A stretch of 64,000 nucleotides of DNA. It comes from Leptospirillum sp. (GTDB lineage: Bacteria > Nitrospirota > Leptospirillia > Leptospirillales > Leptospirillaceae). Of this stretch, positions 4,074 to 13,119 are shown piece by piece. Location of the stretch: contig DAHUYM010000007.1 in NCBI GenBank assembly GCA_027315205.1, positions 1-64,000 on the forward strand, read 5' to 3'. A program made the position numbers and the translations under genes. Under the pieces are notes generated by a model, which worked only from the letters and a program-made list of their open reading frames with translations, searched no databases and had not been told where the DNA came from. Position 1 is the first letter of the stretch, and every line of letters starts with the position of its first letter.

Positions 4074-4880
4074 ATGTCCTGGCACCCTGGCCGCACGCGA
4101 GTCTTCCCGGAAGAGTCCGACCCCTGGACGCGACAGCGCACCCGGCCTCTCGACTCCCGGAGTGCGGTCGTCTTCTTCCGAGAGGTCCGGCGGTTTCTCC
4201 TGGAGGGAGGCAGGACCTACTGGATCGCCGGGGAGGGAGGGATCGCCCCCGACCCCCTCCTCCTGGTGTCCAGCCGCGAGCAGTCTCCGGAGCACTGGCG
4301 GGAACTTCTCGGGCGCGTCCGGATCCGTCGGGGATTCACGAAAGACCAGCTGAGATCTATTCTTGGGGATCTGTCCTCCCGGATCGCATCGGAAACCGTC
4401 CCCTGTCTTCTTCTGTTCTCCGGGTTCGAGCCTTCGGAGAATCTCTCCCCGGGGGATTCGAAACGGCTCCATCAGGAAATCCGGCGGCTCTTTGGAGAAA
4501 CCGATCCGGAAAGATGCCGACTTTTCCTTCTTCAGGCCGCCGATCCGCGCTTTATCGCCGACACCGCCGACGGGGACGGAGGCGTCCTTCCGGAGGCACC
4601 GGCCCCATCGTCTAAGGAGGGAACCATGGGCAAATCCGTTTCCACGTTCCGCGAACAGGTCGAGCAGGAGGAAAAGTCCTGGAGGCCGTTTCGAAAGGGC
4701 CTCTCCCGGGCGGAGCAGGACGTCCTGGACCGGCTTTTCGAAACCTCCCGGCTCTATGTGCATGCCGGCGGGGAAATGTCCGGACAGACCCATCCGTTCA
4801 ACGTCCTTCTCCTGAGCGTGATCCTTGACCTCTCCCGCCGGATCGAGGCGCTGGAAGAAGAACGTTCCCGCCGCCCGTGA
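4074..4880 (+). CDS. RecA-like protein lacking a P-loop, partner of the family B polymerase
   Basis: A 268-residue protein that I cannot assign firmly. Residues about 55-125 (LLLVSSREQSPEHW, RIRRGFTKDQLRSIL, ETVPCLLLFSGFE) resemble the central part of RecA/RadA-like ATPases (nucleotide-binding core strands and an arginine-rich segment), but no Walker A motif is present. The last 84 residues form a separate mostly helical segment. A perfect in-frame Shine-Dalgarno and ATG sit inside the gene at 4614-4628 and could yield this segment alone. The ATG at 4074 is preceded by GAGAGGG eight bases away. The stop overlaps the GTG of the polymerase gene (4877-4880), so the two are coupled. By analogy with ImuA beside DnaE2 it may be a polymerase accessory factor; this is inference. 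Confidence 0.6.
   Translation: MSWHPGRTRVFPEESDPWTRQRTRPLDSRSAVVFFREVRRFLLEGGRTYWIAGEGGIAPDPLLLVSSREQSPEHWRELLGRVRIRRGFTKDQLRSILGDLSSRIASETVPCLLLFSGFEPSENLSPGDSKRLHQEIRRLFGETDPERCRLFLLQAADPRFIADTADGDGGVLPEAPAPSSKEGTMGKSVSTFREQVEQEEKSWRPFRKGLSRAEQDVLDRLFETSRLYVHAGGEMSGQTHPFNVLLLSVILDLSRRIEALEEERSRRP
4614..4628 (+). promoter_or_regulatory. Internal ribosome-binding site and ATG inside the RecA-like gene
   Basis: AAGGAGG at 4614-4620 is followed after five bases by ATG at 4626, in the same frame as the 4074-4880 gene. This is the strongest Shine-Dalgarno match in the neighbourhood. It predicts a second product of 84 residues ending at the same stop (4880). Confidence 0.5.
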
Positions 4881-7117
4881 AGCCGGAGGAGCTTCCGACG
4901 TTCTTCAAGAGAACGGGCGATCCCGTGCCGTCCGGTTCCGAAATCCGCGGGTTCCTGTTCGATATCACGGAAGAAGAGGAGGGGGTCGGACTCTGGATCC
5001 GGACCCCTGACCGCAGGATGATCTTTCTCCGGGATCCTGCGTTTAGGCCTTCCGTTCTCATGGAAGCGTCCGGGAGCGCCCTCCGGAACGTGTCGACCCG
5101 GCTTTCGCGGATGGACCCCTTTCTTTCGCGAAGGAAAGAGCGGTGGAAGGACCTGTTCACCGGGGAAGAGCACGATATGACCGCGCTCGTGTTCTCCCGT
5201 CCGCGGGCCTTCCGGGATTTTCTCGCCTGCCTCCCGTCTCTTTCACGTCTTCCGGTCCGTTTCTTCAACGCGGACATCGACGTTTCCATGCGCTACCTCT
5301 GCCAGAACCGGATCCACCCGCTATCGTTTGTGCATATCGAGAAGGAGGGGGACACCGTTCTTGGGATCCATCCCGATCCCGACAGGGACTTTCCGGAGGA
5401 GACCCTGGAGAGTGCGGAGATCTTCCTGGATGGAAATCGGATCGTCCTCTCCGACGGCAGGGACGAGCGGATGTTCCTTGACACCGGATTCTCCCTTCTC
5501 CGGCATCTGGCCGACTGGATCCGCGGCCACAACATCGATGTCCTCTATTCGCGCGGAGGTGACCGCCGGATTTTTCCGGGACTCCTGGCCGAGCTCTCGC
5601 ACCGTTTCCTCCCGGACGCCGCCCCGTTTTACGGGAGGCCGTTCGTCCTTTCGGGACGGTGGCACCTGGACAGGAGTACCTCCTTTTTCCTGAAGGAATC
5701 GTTCCTTTCGGGTCTGATCGAGATCGCGCGTTTCAGTTTCGTCGATTTCCAGACATTGGCCCGGTGCACAGCCGGAGGAGCTATTTCCTCCGCGCAGATC
5801 GCCTATGCCCTCCAGAACGGAATCCGGATTCCGTTTGCGAAGGAAAAGACAGAAGGATTCTCTTCCGGCCTCGAATTCCTTCAAAAGGACCGGGGAGGGA
5901 TGGTCATGGTTCCCCGGGCCGGCGTATACGAAAACGTCACGGAAATCGATTTTTCGTCCCTCTATCCCGCCCTCATGGTTCACCGGAACATCTCCCCGGA
6001 AACGGTCAACTGCGCCTGTTGTCCTGAAAATCGTGTCCCGGAGAGCCCCCATCATCTTTGTCTGAAGCGGAGGGGGCTTGTCCCCGACGTGCTGGAGCCG
6101 ATCCTGAAACGCCGCCTCTCTCTCAAAAAGGAGTGTTCGGAGCCGCCCGCAGGCACCGACCATGACCGGGCGAAAAAACGGCAGACCGCCCTCAAGTGGA
6201 TACTGGTCGTCTGCTTCGGGTACCTGGGGTACAAGAACGCCCGGTTCGGGAACGTGGAGTCGCACGAAGCCGTGACCGCCTGGGGAAGGGCTTCCCTCCT
6301 TGCCGCCCGTGAAATCCTGGAATCCCGGAATCTCCCCGTGCGCCATGCGATCGTCGATTCCCTGTGGTTTGAAGGTATCGATTCCCCGGACCCCGGAGGG
6401 AACGGCCGTCTGTCCGTCGTCAAGAGCGCCATTCGGGAACGGACGGGGATTCCGATCGAGGTGGAGGGGATCTATTCCTGGATCGTGTTCCTTCCCCGGA
6501 AAGGCTCCACGCTCCTGGGGAGCGCGAACCGCTATTTCGGAAGGATGCGGGACGGCCGGACGAAGATCCGGGGGATCGCCGCGCGCCAATGGGGAACGCC
6601 TCCCTTTATCCGGACGATCCAGGAAGATCTTCTGGAACGCATGGGCCTGTGCGAGAGAGCCTCCGACGTCCGTGCCGCCCTTCCGGAGCTTCTCGAGGCC
6701 GTTCGCGTTCGTCTGCGGGATCTTCGCGACCGGCGGGTTCCCCTTGCGGACCTCTGCCTGTCGGAACGGCTACATCGATCCCCGGAAACCTATCAAAGAG
6801 CCTCTCCTGCCGTCGTCGCGGCCCAGAAAGAAGGGCTTGCCTTCAGGAAGAGGCAAACCGGAACCGTCTCGTACTGGATTTCCGGGAGGGGAGAGTCCTA
6901 CCCGGGGGACCGTGTGGTCCCTTCTCGGGGGGACGAACTCCCCATGGTGGATCTCGGGGATTACGAAACCCTCGCGATCGATGCCGTCCTGGAGATCCTG
7001 GGGCCTTTCTGCCCCGATCCGGAGAGTCTCCGGAAAAGGCTCAAGAATGCGGATCCATCCAAGATTCGTTCCGCAGGAAAGAGACGTTCGGGGAATCTGT
7101 TCCCGTCCTGGTCGTGA
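4877..7117 (+). CDS. Family B DNA polymerase, PolB2-like
   Basis: A 746-residue polymerase. Motif A is EIDFSSLYP with the metal-binding aspartate at residue 358. Motif B is K440 followed by CFGYLGYKNARFG, a variant of the usual KxxxNSxYG. Motif C is IVDSLWFEG (D494) instead of YGDTDS, so the first of the two aspartates is missing but the catalytic one remains. A cysteine cluster (CACC, then C) follows motif A. The N-terminal exonuclease region keeps NADIDVSMRYL and HNIDVLYSRGGD but not a clear DxE set, so proofreading is doubtful. The altered motif C and cysteines recall archaeal PolB2 (Dpo2), which acts in damage tolerance. Starts with GTG overlapping the upstream stop. Confidence 0.85.
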   Translation: MKPEELPTFFKRTGDPVPSGSEIRGFLFDITEEEEGVGLWIRTPDRRMIFLRDPAFRPSVLMEASGSALRNVSTRLSRMDPFLSRRKERWKDLFTGEEHDMTALVFSRPRAFRDFLACLPSLSRLPVRFFNADIDVSMRYLCQNRIHPLSFVHIEKEGDTVLGIHPDPDRDFPEETLESAEIFLDGNRIVLSDGRDERMFLDTGFSLLRHLADWIRGHNIDVLYSRGGDRRIFPGLLAELSHRFLPDAAPFYGRPFVLSGRWHLDRSTSFFLKESFLSGLIEIARFSFVDFQTLARCTAGGAISSAQIAYALQNGIRIPFAKEKTEGFSSGLEFLQKDRGGMVMVPRAGVYENVTEIDFSSLYPALMVHRNISPETVNCACCPENRVPESPHHLCLKRRGLVPDVLEPILKRRLSLKKECSEPPAGTDHDRAKKRQTALKWILVVCFGYLGYKNARFGNVESHEAVTAWGRASLLAAREILESRNLPVRHAIVDSLWFEGIDSPDPGGNGRLSVVKSAIRERTGIPIEVEGIYSWIVFLPRKGSTLLGSANRYFGRMRDGRTKIRGIAARQWGTPPFIRTIQEDLLERMGLCERASDVRAALPELLEAVRVRLRDLRDRRVPLADLCLSERLHRSPETYQRASPAVVAAQKEGLAFRKRQTGTVSYWISGRGESYPGDRVVPSRGDELPMVDLGDYETLAIDAVLEILGPFCPDPESLRKRLKNADPSKIRSAGKRRSGNLFPSWS

Positions 7118-9019: not shown

Positions 9020-10465
9020 GTGCGGGATTCCGATTGCTCGATAAACCCCTTACGCGATTCCTGTTTCGACGAGATGAAACGGGCCGACGGTATCGTGCGC
9101 CCTCCCTACGGAACTTATTCCCAATGGCTCGAAGGAACCCCCATAGAGTCTCTCCGTCAAAAGCAGGTTGAAGCCGAATTCCTTTTCCAGAGGCTTGGGA
9201 TCACGTTTTCCGTCTACGGAAAGGAGTCCGAGAACGAGCGACTTATCCCGTTCGACATCCTGCCGAGGATCCTCTCCGCCGAAGAGTGGAAAACGGTGTC
9301 GGCCGGATGCGTCCAGCGTATCCGGGCGATCAACGCCTTCCTTAGAGATATATACCATGGGCAGGAAATCCTCCGCGCGGGGGTCATTCCTTCCGCACAG
9401 ATCCTGGAAAACGCCCAGTACCTCCATCCCCTTCAAGGGGTGAAGGTGCCGGGGGATGTGTACGTCCATATTGCCGGCATCGATATCGTCCGGGTCGAGG
9501 AAGGCGAATTCTTCGTCCTGGAAGACAATCTGAGGACGCCTTCGGGCGTCTCCTACATGCTGGAGAACCGCCGCATGATGATGCGGCTTTTCCCGGAGCT
9601 GTTCACCTGCCAGTCCATCGCTCCCGTGGACCATTATCCCCAGATGCTCCTCGACAACCTGAGAAGCGTCTCCCCCAGGGGCATCAACGATCCGACGATC
9701 GTCCTCCTGACCCCGGGCGCCCACAACAGCGCCTATTTCGAGCATGCGTTCCTGGCGCAGCAGATGGGGATCGAACTGGTCGAAGGGCAGGATCTCTTCG
9801 TCCGGGACAACAAGGTCTACATGCGGGCGACCCAGGGTCCCCAAAGGGTCGACGTGATCTACCGGAGGGTCGACGATGCGTTCCTCGATCCCCTGGTGTT
9901 CCGGCAGGATTCCGTGCTCGGAGTTCCGGGTCTCGTGTCCGTCTACCGGAGCGGGAACGTGGCCCTCGCCAATGCCATGGGGACCGGGGTCGCGGACGAC
10001 AAGTCGACGTACACATATATTCCCGAGATCATCCGGTTCTACCTGGGGGAGGAACCGCTCCTCGCGAACGTCCCGACCTACCGGTTGTCCGATCCAAGCG
10101 ACCTGCTCTACGTTCTCGAACATCTCGATTCCCTGGTCGCGAAGGAAGTCCAGGGGTCCGGAGGGTACGGGATGCTGGTCGGACCGACCAGTTCGAAAAA
10201 GGAGATCGAGGCGTATCGGGGCCGCATTCTCGAAAACCCCGGGAACTTCATCGCGCAGCCCACGCTTGCGCTTTCCACCTGCCCAACCTTCGCGGACTCC
10301 GGGATTGTGCCGCGCCACGTCGACCTGAGGCCGTTTGTATTGAACGGAAAATCCGTTTCGCTCGTGCCGGGAGGACTCACGAGGGTGGCCCTGAAGGAAG
10401 GGTCCCTGATCGTCAACTCATCCCAGGGGGGCGGAACAAAAGACACCTGGGTACTGGAGGGATAA
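9020..10465 (+). CDS. Circularly permuted ATP-grasp protein (DUF404/DUF407)
   Basis: A 481-residue protein of the circularly permuted ATP-grasp type: LPRILSAEEWKTVSAGCVQRIRAINAFLRDIYHGQ near the N-terminus, EGEFFVLEDNLRTPSGVSYMLENR in the middle, TPGAHNSAYFEHAFLAQQMGIELVEG, and a late KEVQGSGGYGMLVGPTSSKKE block. These enzymes are predicted to form peptide-like bonds with ATP; the product is unknown. It is the first gene of the cluster with an alpha-E protein and an Anbu protease. A GTG start at 9020 follows a G-rich Shine-Dalgarno (9006-9014). Four bases separate it from the next gene. Confidence 0.88.
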   Translation: MRDSDCSINPLRDSCFDEMKRADGIVRPPYGTYSQWLEGTPIESLRQKQVEAEFLFQRLGITFSVYGKESENERLIPFDILPRILSAEEWKTVSAGCVQRIRAINAFLRDIYHGQEILRAGVIPSAQILENAQYLHPLQGVKVPGDVYVHIAGIDIVRVEEGEFFVLEDNLRTPSGVSYMLENRRMMMRLFPELFTCQSIAPVDHYPQMLLDNLRSVSPRGINDPTIVLLTPGAHNSAYFEHAFLAQQMGIELVEGQDLFVRDNKVYMRATQGPQRVDVIYRRVDDAFLDPLVFRQDSVLGVPGLVSVYRSGNVALANAMGTGVADDKSTYTYIPEIIRFYLGEEPLLANVPTYRLSDPSDLLYVLEHLDSLVAKEVQGSGGYGMLVGPTSSKKEIEAYRGRILENPGNFIAQPTLALSTCPTFADSGIVPRHVDLRPFVLNGKSVSLVPGGLTRVALKEGSLIVNSSQGGGTKDTWVLEG

Positions 10466-10469
10466 TGCC

Positions 10470-11513
10470 ATGCTGAGCCGGACCGCTTCGCACGTCTACT
10501 GGATGGCGCGCTACATGGAGCGCGCGGAGAACACCGCCCGGATTCTGAACATCATGCACCACATGTCCCTGTTGCCCCAGGGGACGCCTGAAGGGTACCA
10601 GGAATGGAACGCGCCCCTAAACATCACGGGCACCCTGGAATCTTTTTGCGGGAGATACGAAAAGATCAACGCCGACAATGTCCTCAGGTTCATGGCGCTG
10701 GACGGGGAAAATCCGTTCAGCATTTTTTCGAGCGTGTCCAGGGCCCGCGAAAACGCCCGGTCGGTCCGGGGAAAGATTACGACGGAGATGTGGGAGAGCC
10801 TGAACTCCACATGGATCGAGCTCAAGAGAATGCGGGACAAGAGCCCGAAGGAAAGGGATTTCGGTCAGTTCTTCGAATGGGTCAAGGAGCGCTCTCATCT
10901 CTTCCGTGGCGTCACCCATGGAACCATCCTCCGGGACAACACGTTCCATTTCGTGCGGCTGGGCACCTTCCTCGAACGCGCCGACAGCACGGCCCGCATC
11001 CTCGATGTGAAATACCACATTCTCCTGCCCAGCCTGAAGGACGTGGGGGGAGCCGTCGATTATTATCAATGGGGTGCGCTGTTGAGGTCGGTCAGCGCGT
11101 TCGAATCCTACCGGAAAGTGTACCGGGACGTCATCACGCCGATGCGGGTTGCGGAGATGTTGATTTTGAGAGAGGATATGCCCCGTTCGCTTCACGCATG
11201 CCTAGACGAGATCCTGGGCATTCTGGCCGGGATTAACGGAGGATCCGGCGTAGAAGCCCGACGGCGGACGGGAGAACTTCACGCGCGCTTACATTTCGCG
11301 CGCATTTCCGACATATTCGATTTCGGAATGCACGAATACCTCACCGATTTTTTGAAGCGGATCATGGCTTTGACGGACGAGATCCATTCGAGCTTCTTCG
11401 TTTACGGCGATGCCGAACCCGTCTCGGTCTTCTCCCGGATGCCGAGCGAGAGAGGCTTTGCGCTGACGACCGACGACGCCCATCTCGTCATGGACGGTGG
11501 ATCGAATGCGTGA
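10470..11513 (+). CDS. Alpha-E domain protein (DUF403)
   Basis: A 347-residue all-helical protein starting MLSRTASHVYWMARYMERAENTARIL, the diagnostic N-terminus of the alpha-E family. Internal features include the second arginine-rich helix (FLERADSTARILDVKYH) and a helix with LHARLHFARISDIFDFGMHEYL. The function is unknown. It is almost always encoded beside the permuted ATP-grasp protein, here starting four bases after that stop, and the two are thought to form one enzyme system. ATG start. Confidence 0.9.
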   Translation: MLSRTASHVYWMARYMERAENTARILNIMHHMSLLPQGTPEGYQEWNAPLNITGTLESFCGRYEKINADNVLRFMALDGENPFSIFSSVSRARENARSVRGKITTEMWESLNSTWIELKRMRDKSPKERDFGQFFEWVKERSHLFRGVTHGTILRDNTFHFVRLGTFLERADSTARILDVKYHILLPSLKDVGGAVDYYQWGALLRSVSAFESYRKVYRDVITPMRVAEMLILREDMPRSLHACLDEILGILAGINGGSGVEARRRTGELHARLHFARISDIFDFGMHEYLTDFLKRIMALTDEIHSSFFVYGDAEPVSVFSRMPSERGFALTTDDAHLVMDGGSNA

Positions 11514-11541
11514 ACGATCGCCGGTTACGGAGTGTCTATAG

Positions 11542-12279
11542 ATGACCTATTGCGCCGCCCTGATGCTGGAATCCGGCATCGTCTTCGGTTCGGATTCCCG
11601 GACCAATGCGGGCGTGGACGATATCGCGACCTTCCGGAAAATGAAAGTCTTCGAACGTTCCGGCGACCGTGTGATGGTCGTCCTGTCCTCGGGAAACCTT
11701 TCCGTGACCCAGGCCGCCCTCACGCTCTTCGAGAAGCGCTCCCATGCAGGCGACGGACGGGAAACCCTCTGGTCCGCGACGTCGCTCTTCGATGTCGCGA
11801 ATATCCTTGGGGAGACGCTCCGGGAGGTGCAACTCAAGGAAGGCCCTTACCTTGCGCAGGACAATATCGACTACAGCGCGTCATTTTTGATGGGGGGGCA
11901 GATCCAGGGAGAGGAGCCCCGCCTCTTTCACATCTATTCCCAGGGAAACTTCATCGAGGCGACCCGGGAAACGCCGTATTTCCAGATCGGGGAGACCAAG
12001 TACGGGAAACCCATCCTCGACCGGGTGATAACGCCCCGGATTTCCCTGAAAGATGCCGCAAAATGTCTGCTCGTCTCCTTCGACTCGACGATGAGGAGCA
12101 ATATTTCAGTCGGTCTTCCGATCGACCTTCTTTGCTACGAGCGCGAGAGTTTTACGACGCGACACCAGTGGCATATCGAGGAAAACGACGTCTATTTCAA
12201 CACGCTTCGGAAGGAATGGTCCGAGGGGCTCAAACAGGTTTTCGGAAGTCTTGCCGATCTCCCTTCCAGGGAGCCCTGA
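11542..12279 (+). CDS. Anbu-type proteasome-like peptidase
   Basis: A 245-residue Ntn-hydrolase. Threonine directly follows the initiator methionine (MTYCAAL), as expected for the N-terminal nucleophile. GIVFGSDSRTNAGVDDIATFRKM is the Anbu (ancestral beta subunit) signature, and GDRVMVVLSSGNLSVTQAAL and SFLMGGQ continue the proteasome fold. Anbu assembles into rings in the cytoplasm; its natural substrate is not settled. Third gene of the ATP-grasp/alpha-E cluster. The transglutaminase-like gene often found in this cluster is not present in the window. Confidence 0.88.
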   Translation: MTYCAALMLESGIVFGSDSRTNAGVDDIATFRKMKVFERSGDRVMVVLSSGNLSVTQAALTLFEKRSHAGDGRETLWSATSLFDVANILGETLREVQLKEGPYLAQDNIDYSASFLMGGQIQGEEPRLFHIYSQGNFIEATRETPYFQIGETKYGKPILDRVITPRISLKDAAKCLLVSFDSTMRSNISVGLPIDLLCYERESFTTRHQWHIEENDVYFNTLRKEWSEGLKQVFGSLADLPSREP

Positions 12280-12438: not shown

Positions 12439-13119
12439 TTACACAAAGACGGACCGCTTTTTACGCAGGCAGACTTGGCAACCCACCAGGACGACTCCTG
12501 TTCCGAACAGGATCCATGTGCCGGGTTCCGGAACGGCAGTCCCCCCGCCCAATGTGATGTTTTCCGAAGTGATCCCGTCATGTACCCCATCGCTGTTCAG
12601 ATACAAGGCCTTGATGCTCGCAGCATCCGTCCCCGTCAACAATGTTCCGGGAACGATCGACTCGTCGTACTGGAAAGTATATGTTGCGCTCCCCGTCAGA
12701 AGACCGGAAGTCGCCGACGAATAGGTGGCGCAGGCAAATCCCGACGATCCGGACTTGCACCCGTTCGCATCCAGGCCACCGATCGTTTTTCCGGTAAATC
12801 CCGATGGAAGACTTACAGACGAGATGGACAGGATATCCGCCGTGTTGGGCGTGGTCTTGACGGCAACGCTGTTCAGGTAATACTGGGCGGAATCCGTGAG
12901 GGCCGTATCGACCGTCAGCGTGATCTGATAGGTATCTGCCAGCGTCGACAGACTGAGCGTTTTGTCGGTAAGGGTATAGACGGATCCGTAGCACGAGCCG
13001 CAGCTTGGACCGATGATTCCGGCATGAAGCGTTCCGGGGAGTCCCGCTGAAAGGAATCCGAATGCAAGCAGAAACAGTGTCCAGAAGGTCGATTTTCGTT
13101 TCAGCCCCACGGTATTCAT
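12439..13119 (-). CDS. PEP-CTERM sorted exported protein
   Basis: A 226-residue protein with an N-terminal signal peptide (hydrophobic stretch 12-30, cleavage near LHAG) and a C-terminal sorting signal: VPEPGTWILFGTGVVLVGCQVC then LRKKR. This PEP motif, membrane helix and basic tail is recognised and cut by an exosortase, which is not encoded in this window. The mature region is rich in Thr, Ser and Gly and contains CGSC and two further cysteines (CKSG, FACAT). It probably ends up at the surface or in the exopolymer matrix. Transcribed alone from a sigma-54-type promoter. Confidence 0.9.
   Translation of the reverse strand: MNTVGLKRKSTFWTLFLLAFGFLSAGLPGTLHAGIIGPSCGSCYGSVYTLTDKTLSLSTLADTYQITLTVDTALTDSAQYYLNSVAVKTTPNTADILSISSVSLPSGFTGKTIGGLDANGCKSGSSGFACATYSSATSGLLTGSATYTFQYDESIVPGTLLTGTDAASIKALYLNSDGVHDGITSENITLGGGTAVPEPGTWILFGTGVVLVGCQVCLRKKRSVFV

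Follow-up and report, generated by a model that had tools for sequence, protein, structure and literature searches.

A predicted PolB2 mutasome locus with a fused iRadA-PPB2 gene in Leptospirillum

Introduction

Which damage-tolerance complex would be encoded by a two-gene locus of Leptospirillum sp., in which the gene for a family B DNA polymerase follows that for a small RecA-like partner, and what would such a complex do when replication stalls? The locus lies in the window, i.e. the first 64,000 nucleotides of contig DAHUYM010000007.1 (assembly GCA_027315205.1). An earlier note, made from the sequence alone, assigned the polymerase to PolB2, proposed a role in damage tolerance and regarded the pair, by analogy with ImuA beside DnaE2, as a possible new mutasome type. 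The three-part cassette was, however, described in bacteria by Makarova, Krupovic and Koonin in 2014 as the arCOG07300 operon, with Leptospirillum ferriphilum LFML04_0990-0993 (PolB2, arCOG07300, inactivated radA and lexA) as the worked example (PMC4104785). Timinskas et al. named iRadA and PPB2 in 2025, the latter being a small helical protein modelled as a trimer, and modelled the complex as a heteropentamer, iRadA:PPB2(3):PolB2; bacterial iRadA-PPB2 fusions with an internal Shine-Dalgarno sequence, the proximity of lexA, and clamp motifs carried by either iRadA or PolB2 were also reported (PMC11791011). Since iRadA-PPB2-PolB2 is this published PolB2 mutasome, the claim of a new type fails. 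In Sulfolobus, the PolB2 enzyme Dpo2 is an active, exonuclease-free extender (Feng et al., PMC8764526), which is damage-induced and constitutes the main source of damage-induced mutagenesis (Feng et al., PMC7390963).

Organization of the locus

Both open reading frames were confirmed at positions 4074-7117 (+), and relatives have these three genes in an identical order, in most cases accompanied by lexA. The published L. ferriphilum locus corresponds to that of the sampled relatives. The features of the locus are as follows.

4074..4625 (+), iRadA half of the fusion gene, residues 1-184 (approximate): predicted ATPase-dead RadA/Rad51-like subunit, from profile and fold
4615..4620 (+), internal Shine-Dalgarno sequence AGGAGG, 5 nt before the PPB2 ATG, from sequence
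4626..4880 (+), PPB2 half, residues 185-268: from homology to separate PPB2 genes of relatives and to haloarchaeal PPB2
4877..7117 (+), PolB2 family B DNA polymerase, 746 aa: from NF004416, PF00136, tree and AlphaFold model
5669..5674 (+), D265-R266, D(K/R) loop motif of PolB2; D265 invariant where covered
5948..5950 (+), motif A catalytic Asp358 of PolB2, invariant
6011..6061 (+), Cys379/Cys381/Cys382/Cys395 cluster after motif A, from alignment conservation
6350..6367 (+), motif C IVDSLW replacing DTDS, with catalytic Asp494, from alignment
7091..7114 (+), possible beta-clamp-binding PolB2 tail GNLFPSWS, a lead from resemblance to relatives' tails

The start codon of polB2 is a GTG at 4877 that lies within the stop codon of the partner gene (GTGA overlap), and therefore the fusion gene and polB2 are probably translationally coupled. 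The G+C content of the cassette (4074-7117) is 61.7%, against 56.5% for the window. Further downstream, three consecutive genes at 9020-12279 (+), assigned by eye to a circularly permuted ATP-grasp protein, an alpha-E domain protein and an Anbu-type proteasome-like protease, presumably represent a known bacterial operon type, and a predicted secreted protein with a PEP-CTERM-like tail (VPEPGTWILFGTGVVLVG...RKKR) is encoded at 12439-13119 (-).

The partner protein

The 268-residue partner had been taken for a RecA-like core without a P-loop. The sequence indeed lacks a P-loop (Walker A), but only about half of the protein is RecA/RadA-like, and the remainder had been missed. No significant Pfam match was obtained for the partner, nor did any ImuA family of Pfam or NCBIfam match it. 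When the whole protein was compared with relatives, it was mainly the C-terminal part, adjoining PolB2, that matched. PPB2 is in most relatives encoded on its own, by a gene of some 90 codons that starts with MGRT and lies directly upstream of polB2; the C-terminal part of the window protein aligns with these genes (E 1e-8 to 1e-17) and also with haloarchaeal PPB2, and residues 185-268 (84 residues) are on this homology assigned to PPB2, the third mutasome subunit. This part has its own start at Met185 (4626) with AGGAGG 5 nt ahead, a spacing at which the motif precedes only 5 of the 505 internal Met codons in long open reading frames of the window, and the internal start probably also yields free PPB2. 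The same fusion is present in one other genome (G003), with a weaker internal Shine-Dalgarno sequence, and both fusions have MGKS for MGRT. The window arm reads MGKSVSTFR, in which R9 of the family is kept and K3 and S4 are changed; contact between this arm and the D(K/R) loop of the polymerase is part of the published model (PMC11791011), and the presence of MGKS rather than MGRT counts against reading the locus as a mutasome.

Residues 1 to about 184, aligned alone and apart from the PPB2 portion, are identified by profile as iRadA, which is related to archaeal RadA/Rad51 but ATPase-dead. They match a hidden Markov model built on 15 further iRadA proteins, without the window and G003 rows, at E 8.5e-7, the best of 2000 shuffles reaching 0.19. 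Searched against the PDB, the iRadA profile retrieves archaeal RadA at E 9.4e-8 with bacterial rows only and at E 3.7e-11 with haloarchaeal rows added; eukaryotic Rad51 is matched too, and neither bacterial RecA nor ImuA is among the PDB matches listed. The AlphaFold model of iRadA has Rad51 paralogues, Rad51 and RadA as its structural matches, most of them with E values slightly over 0.001, and is of moderate confidence only (pLDDT 68.9, pTM 0.61), which is a further point against the mutasome reading. The partner could instead be an ImuA-like protein of the RecA lineage, recruited independently beside PolB2 to form a new mutasome type, as its missing P-loop and its position beside an error-prone-type polymerase might suggest. 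The listed profile matches (archaeal RadA and Rad51, but neither bacterial RecA nor ImuA), the occurrence of the same trio in archaea and the prior publication of the cassette make such a recruitment extremely unlikely, and an ImuA/RecA origin of the partner was rejected on the profile searches. The parallel to ImuA beside DnaE2 thus holds for architecture but not for lineage.

The polymerase

The sole Pfam match of the 746-residue polymerase is PF00136, while several NCBIfam models of type B polymerases match it, the best being NF004416 (E 3e-93). The score of this match, 313 bits, is below the curated cut-off of 516, which speaks to some extent against the mutasome reading; none of the PolB2 carriers among 61 genomes reaches that cut-off, nor does the name of the model single out PolB2, and the cut-off was not taken as defining that group. 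PolB2 was detected in 22 of the 61 genomes searched, i.e. the window's own and 60 related ones; in one draft (G020; L046, L047), two different PolB2 genes lie on separate contigs, and these could be a second copy, a strain mixture or contamination. In a tree of 29 proteins, 26 PolB2 sequences form one side of a split with 100/100 support, PolB3 and E. coli Pol II forming the other, although the outgroup branches are long and two outgroup rows are fragments. The window protein pairs in this tree with PolB2 of G003 on long branches, without a resolved position relative to the remaining bacterial PolB2; its activity could have drifted. The AlphaFold model (pLDDT 81.8) has archaeal family B polymerases as its best PDB matches. 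Tree and motifs together identify the protein as a bacterial PolB2, as the earlier note had it.

The motifs on which that assignment was built are all present. The catalytic aspartates D358 (motif A) and D494 (motif C) are invariant in 18 aligned PolB2 proteins, as are K440 and other residues of the polymerase domain. Where YGDTDS would be expected, the window has IVDSLWFEG: the first Asp of DxD is replaced and the second is kept (IVD494). At this position, all 22 bacterial and four haloarchaeal PolB2 sequences in the alignment read [IL]VD[SA][LIV]W, and YxDTDS was seen in none of the close relatives, whereas PolB3 and Pol II have DTD in the same alignment. In the cysteine cluster that had been noticed after motif A (Cys379/381/382/395), C381 and C395 are invariant and C379 is nearly so, and C379, C381 and C395 are also found in haloarchaeal PolB2. 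D265, in a D(K/R)-type loop, is invariant in the aligned PolB2 proteins that cover it, and the PolB2 proteins of haloarchaeal plasmids share the IVD, the cysteine positions and the loop aspartate with the bacterial ones. A clear proofreading triad is lacking, as had been proposed: in the alignment to E. coli Pol II, which covered the Exo II and Exo III blocks, the window protein has a gap at Exo III (YNLKD), Exo II reads GGD and the site is unrecognisable.

Given the loss of the first Asp of DxD, the polymerase might be a catalytically dead protein of structural or regulatory function, which was the view of PolB2 before 2020. A replacement of this kind (IID) in Sulfolobus Dpo2 leaves a robust polymerase (PMC8764526), and the invariance of D358, D494, K440 and their companions likewise argues for an active enzyme; a dead polymerase is accordingly disfavoured and considered very improbable.

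The PolB2 tail in the window is GNLFPSWS, and that at L045 is KELFPDGS; the iRadA tails of several relatives end in GKLFxxQ, GRLFGTQ or similar, and the G003 fusion ends in SGKIFPEER. These patterns are in keeping with a clamp motif that shifts between proteins, and the window tail is offered, as a lead only, as a candidate motif.

lexA and a candidate operator

In most relatives of the family, lexA is the first gene of the operon, and a palindrome, GTGAAC-N4-G[TA]TCAC or a close variant, precedes the lexA-iRadA-PPB2-polB2 operons at L041-L045, L047-L050 and L053. In an exact scan of eight genomes, G002, G005, G006 and G010 carried the palindrome ahead of the operon, with hardly any occurrence elsewhere, whereas GTGAAC-N4-GWTCAC was absent from the window genome (G000) and from G003; the scan was strict and would miss variant sites, e.g. 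before lexA in G004. The palindrome is possibly a local LexA operator. At one locus (L056, in G026) the operon is split, some 7 kb of one contig separating polB2 from lexA and PPB2.

The window cassette has no lexA, and no LexA palindrome was found before it. Both absences count against the mutasome reading, and damage induction of this cassette is no more than a possibility. The window genome's lexA (G000:C39:29372-29995; L060, L061) lies directly behind a gene resembling that of NADH-quinone oxidoreductase subunit N, with no clear operator before it, and its product shares about 36% identity with the LexA type encoded in the relatives' operons. The sequence TTGTACGACAA upstream of the cassette was considered as an operator and rejected, as it has no counterpart before recA or lexA.

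Distribution of PolB2 and Y-family polymerases

Archaeal PolB2 is an extender that depends on a partner for insertion and works with a Y-family inserter, and a bacterial lineage with PolB2 but without a detectable Y-family or second C-family polymerase allows a direct test between two outcomes: insertion opposite damage is the work either of PolB2 with its partners or of the replicase or Pol I. No Y-family polymerase (PolY) was found in the window genome, which is 99.93% complete, in the 20 other genomes of the family (0/21 in all) or in class genomes more than 95% complete, and DnaE gave single matches only across the family, including the one DnaE of the window genome. Across the 61 sampled genomes PolB2 and PolY are nearly complementary, PolY being present in 1/22 PolB2 carriers vs 27/39 non-carriers and, outside the window's family, in 1/6 vs 27/34 (Fisher p 0.006); these genomes are related and therefore non-independent, shared ancestry inflates the figures, and many of the assemblies are incomplete drafts. 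In genus g14, PolB2 occurs without PolY in G029, and PolY without PolB2 in three congeners. The distribution suggests that, in evolution, PolB2 and the Y-family enzymes take each other's place, a statement not found in the open-access papers searched. The additions to published work are modest and comprise the lack of any other detected translesion polymerase in the family, the near-complementarity of PolB2 and PolY, the near-unique palindrome before several relatives' lexA operons, the MGKS of both fusions and the possibly shifting clamp motif.

Because such a cell has no detectable Y-family polymerase or DnaE2 to insert, PolB2 might carry out the whole of translesion synthesis, insertion as well as extension, with iRadA and PPB2 conferring the ability to insert. 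The absence of PolY from the family genomes searched, the single DnaE matches and the near-complementarity with PolY favour this; however, insertion opposite lesions by Sulfolobus Dpo2 alone is poor (PMC8764526, PMC8721586), the inserting enzyme could be Pol III or Pol I, and the counts carry the dependence already described, so that this extended role is held to be a real possibility on the less probable side. A still broader proposal, that the family's PolB2 mutasome has replaced Y-family polymerases and DnaE2 and bypasses lesions alone, insertion included, and that LexA in several relatives is a local repressor of this operon and not of a wide SOS regulon, is tentative and rather unlikely.

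Proposed function

The locus is, with good confidence, interpreted as a bacterial PolB2 mutasome, iRadA-PPB2-PolB2, that most likely extends distorted primer ends, and the damage-tolerance role proposed in the earlier note is supported in this form. Neither outcome that the note had named as refuting it was seen, since the relatives all lack an intact YxDTDS and the fold of the partner is of Rad51/RadA type. The interpretation draws on the family memberships, the fusion, the conserved residues, the gene order and the absence of detectable Y-family or second C-family polymerases; from these, complex formation, its stoichiometry, clamp tethering and translesion activity are inferred. A proofreading-dead PolB2 would be held by an ATPase-dead iRadA and by PPB2. 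Since iRadA and PPB2 are fused and the internal start probably gives free PPB2, one mRNA could supply all subunits, i.e. PolB2, one iRadA-PPB2 and two PPB2. Once damage has halted replication, the most likely action of the complex is to carry distorted primer ends beyond the lesion at the price of mutations, the PolB2 tail possibly tethering it to the beta clamp. It would probably be the cell's main translesion polymerase. Biochemistry of a bacterial PolB2 was not found, which also weighs against the mutasome reading.

Comparison with known systems

The mutasomes formed by ImuA-ImuB-DnaE2 and by UmuD'2C-RecA (Pol V) resemble the predicted complex in that a polymerase is joined by a partner of the Rad51/RecA superfamily in damage tolerance. 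They differ in the family of the polymerase and in the lineage of the partner, iRadA being on the RadA side and not that of RecA/ImuA, and PPB2 is unrelated to UmuD' or ImuB. Dpo2 of Sulfolobus islandicus belongs by its motifs to the same polymerase clade, keeps the second Asp of motif C and lacks proofreading; in Sulfolobus, however, the Y-family polymerase Dpo4 works with Dpo2, whereas the host of the window locus is a bacterium in whose genome no Y-family polymerase was found. Trios of iRadA, PPB2 and PolB2 are also present on haloarchaeal plasmids, one of them beside Cdc6 and an SOS-associated peptidase. With the published PolB2 mutasome, the locus shares the three components, the bacterial gene order, the IVD of motif C, the D(K/R) loop, the inactive exonuclease and the fusion with its internal Shine-Dalgarno sequence. 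It differs in the MGKS arm of PPB2, in a lexA that does not adjoin the cassette, in the absence of the relatives' palindrome from the genome, in a candidate clamp motif at the PolB2 tail and in the long branch that its PolB2 shares with one other genome. By these characters, the locus is classified as a divergent member of the published PolB2 mutasome.
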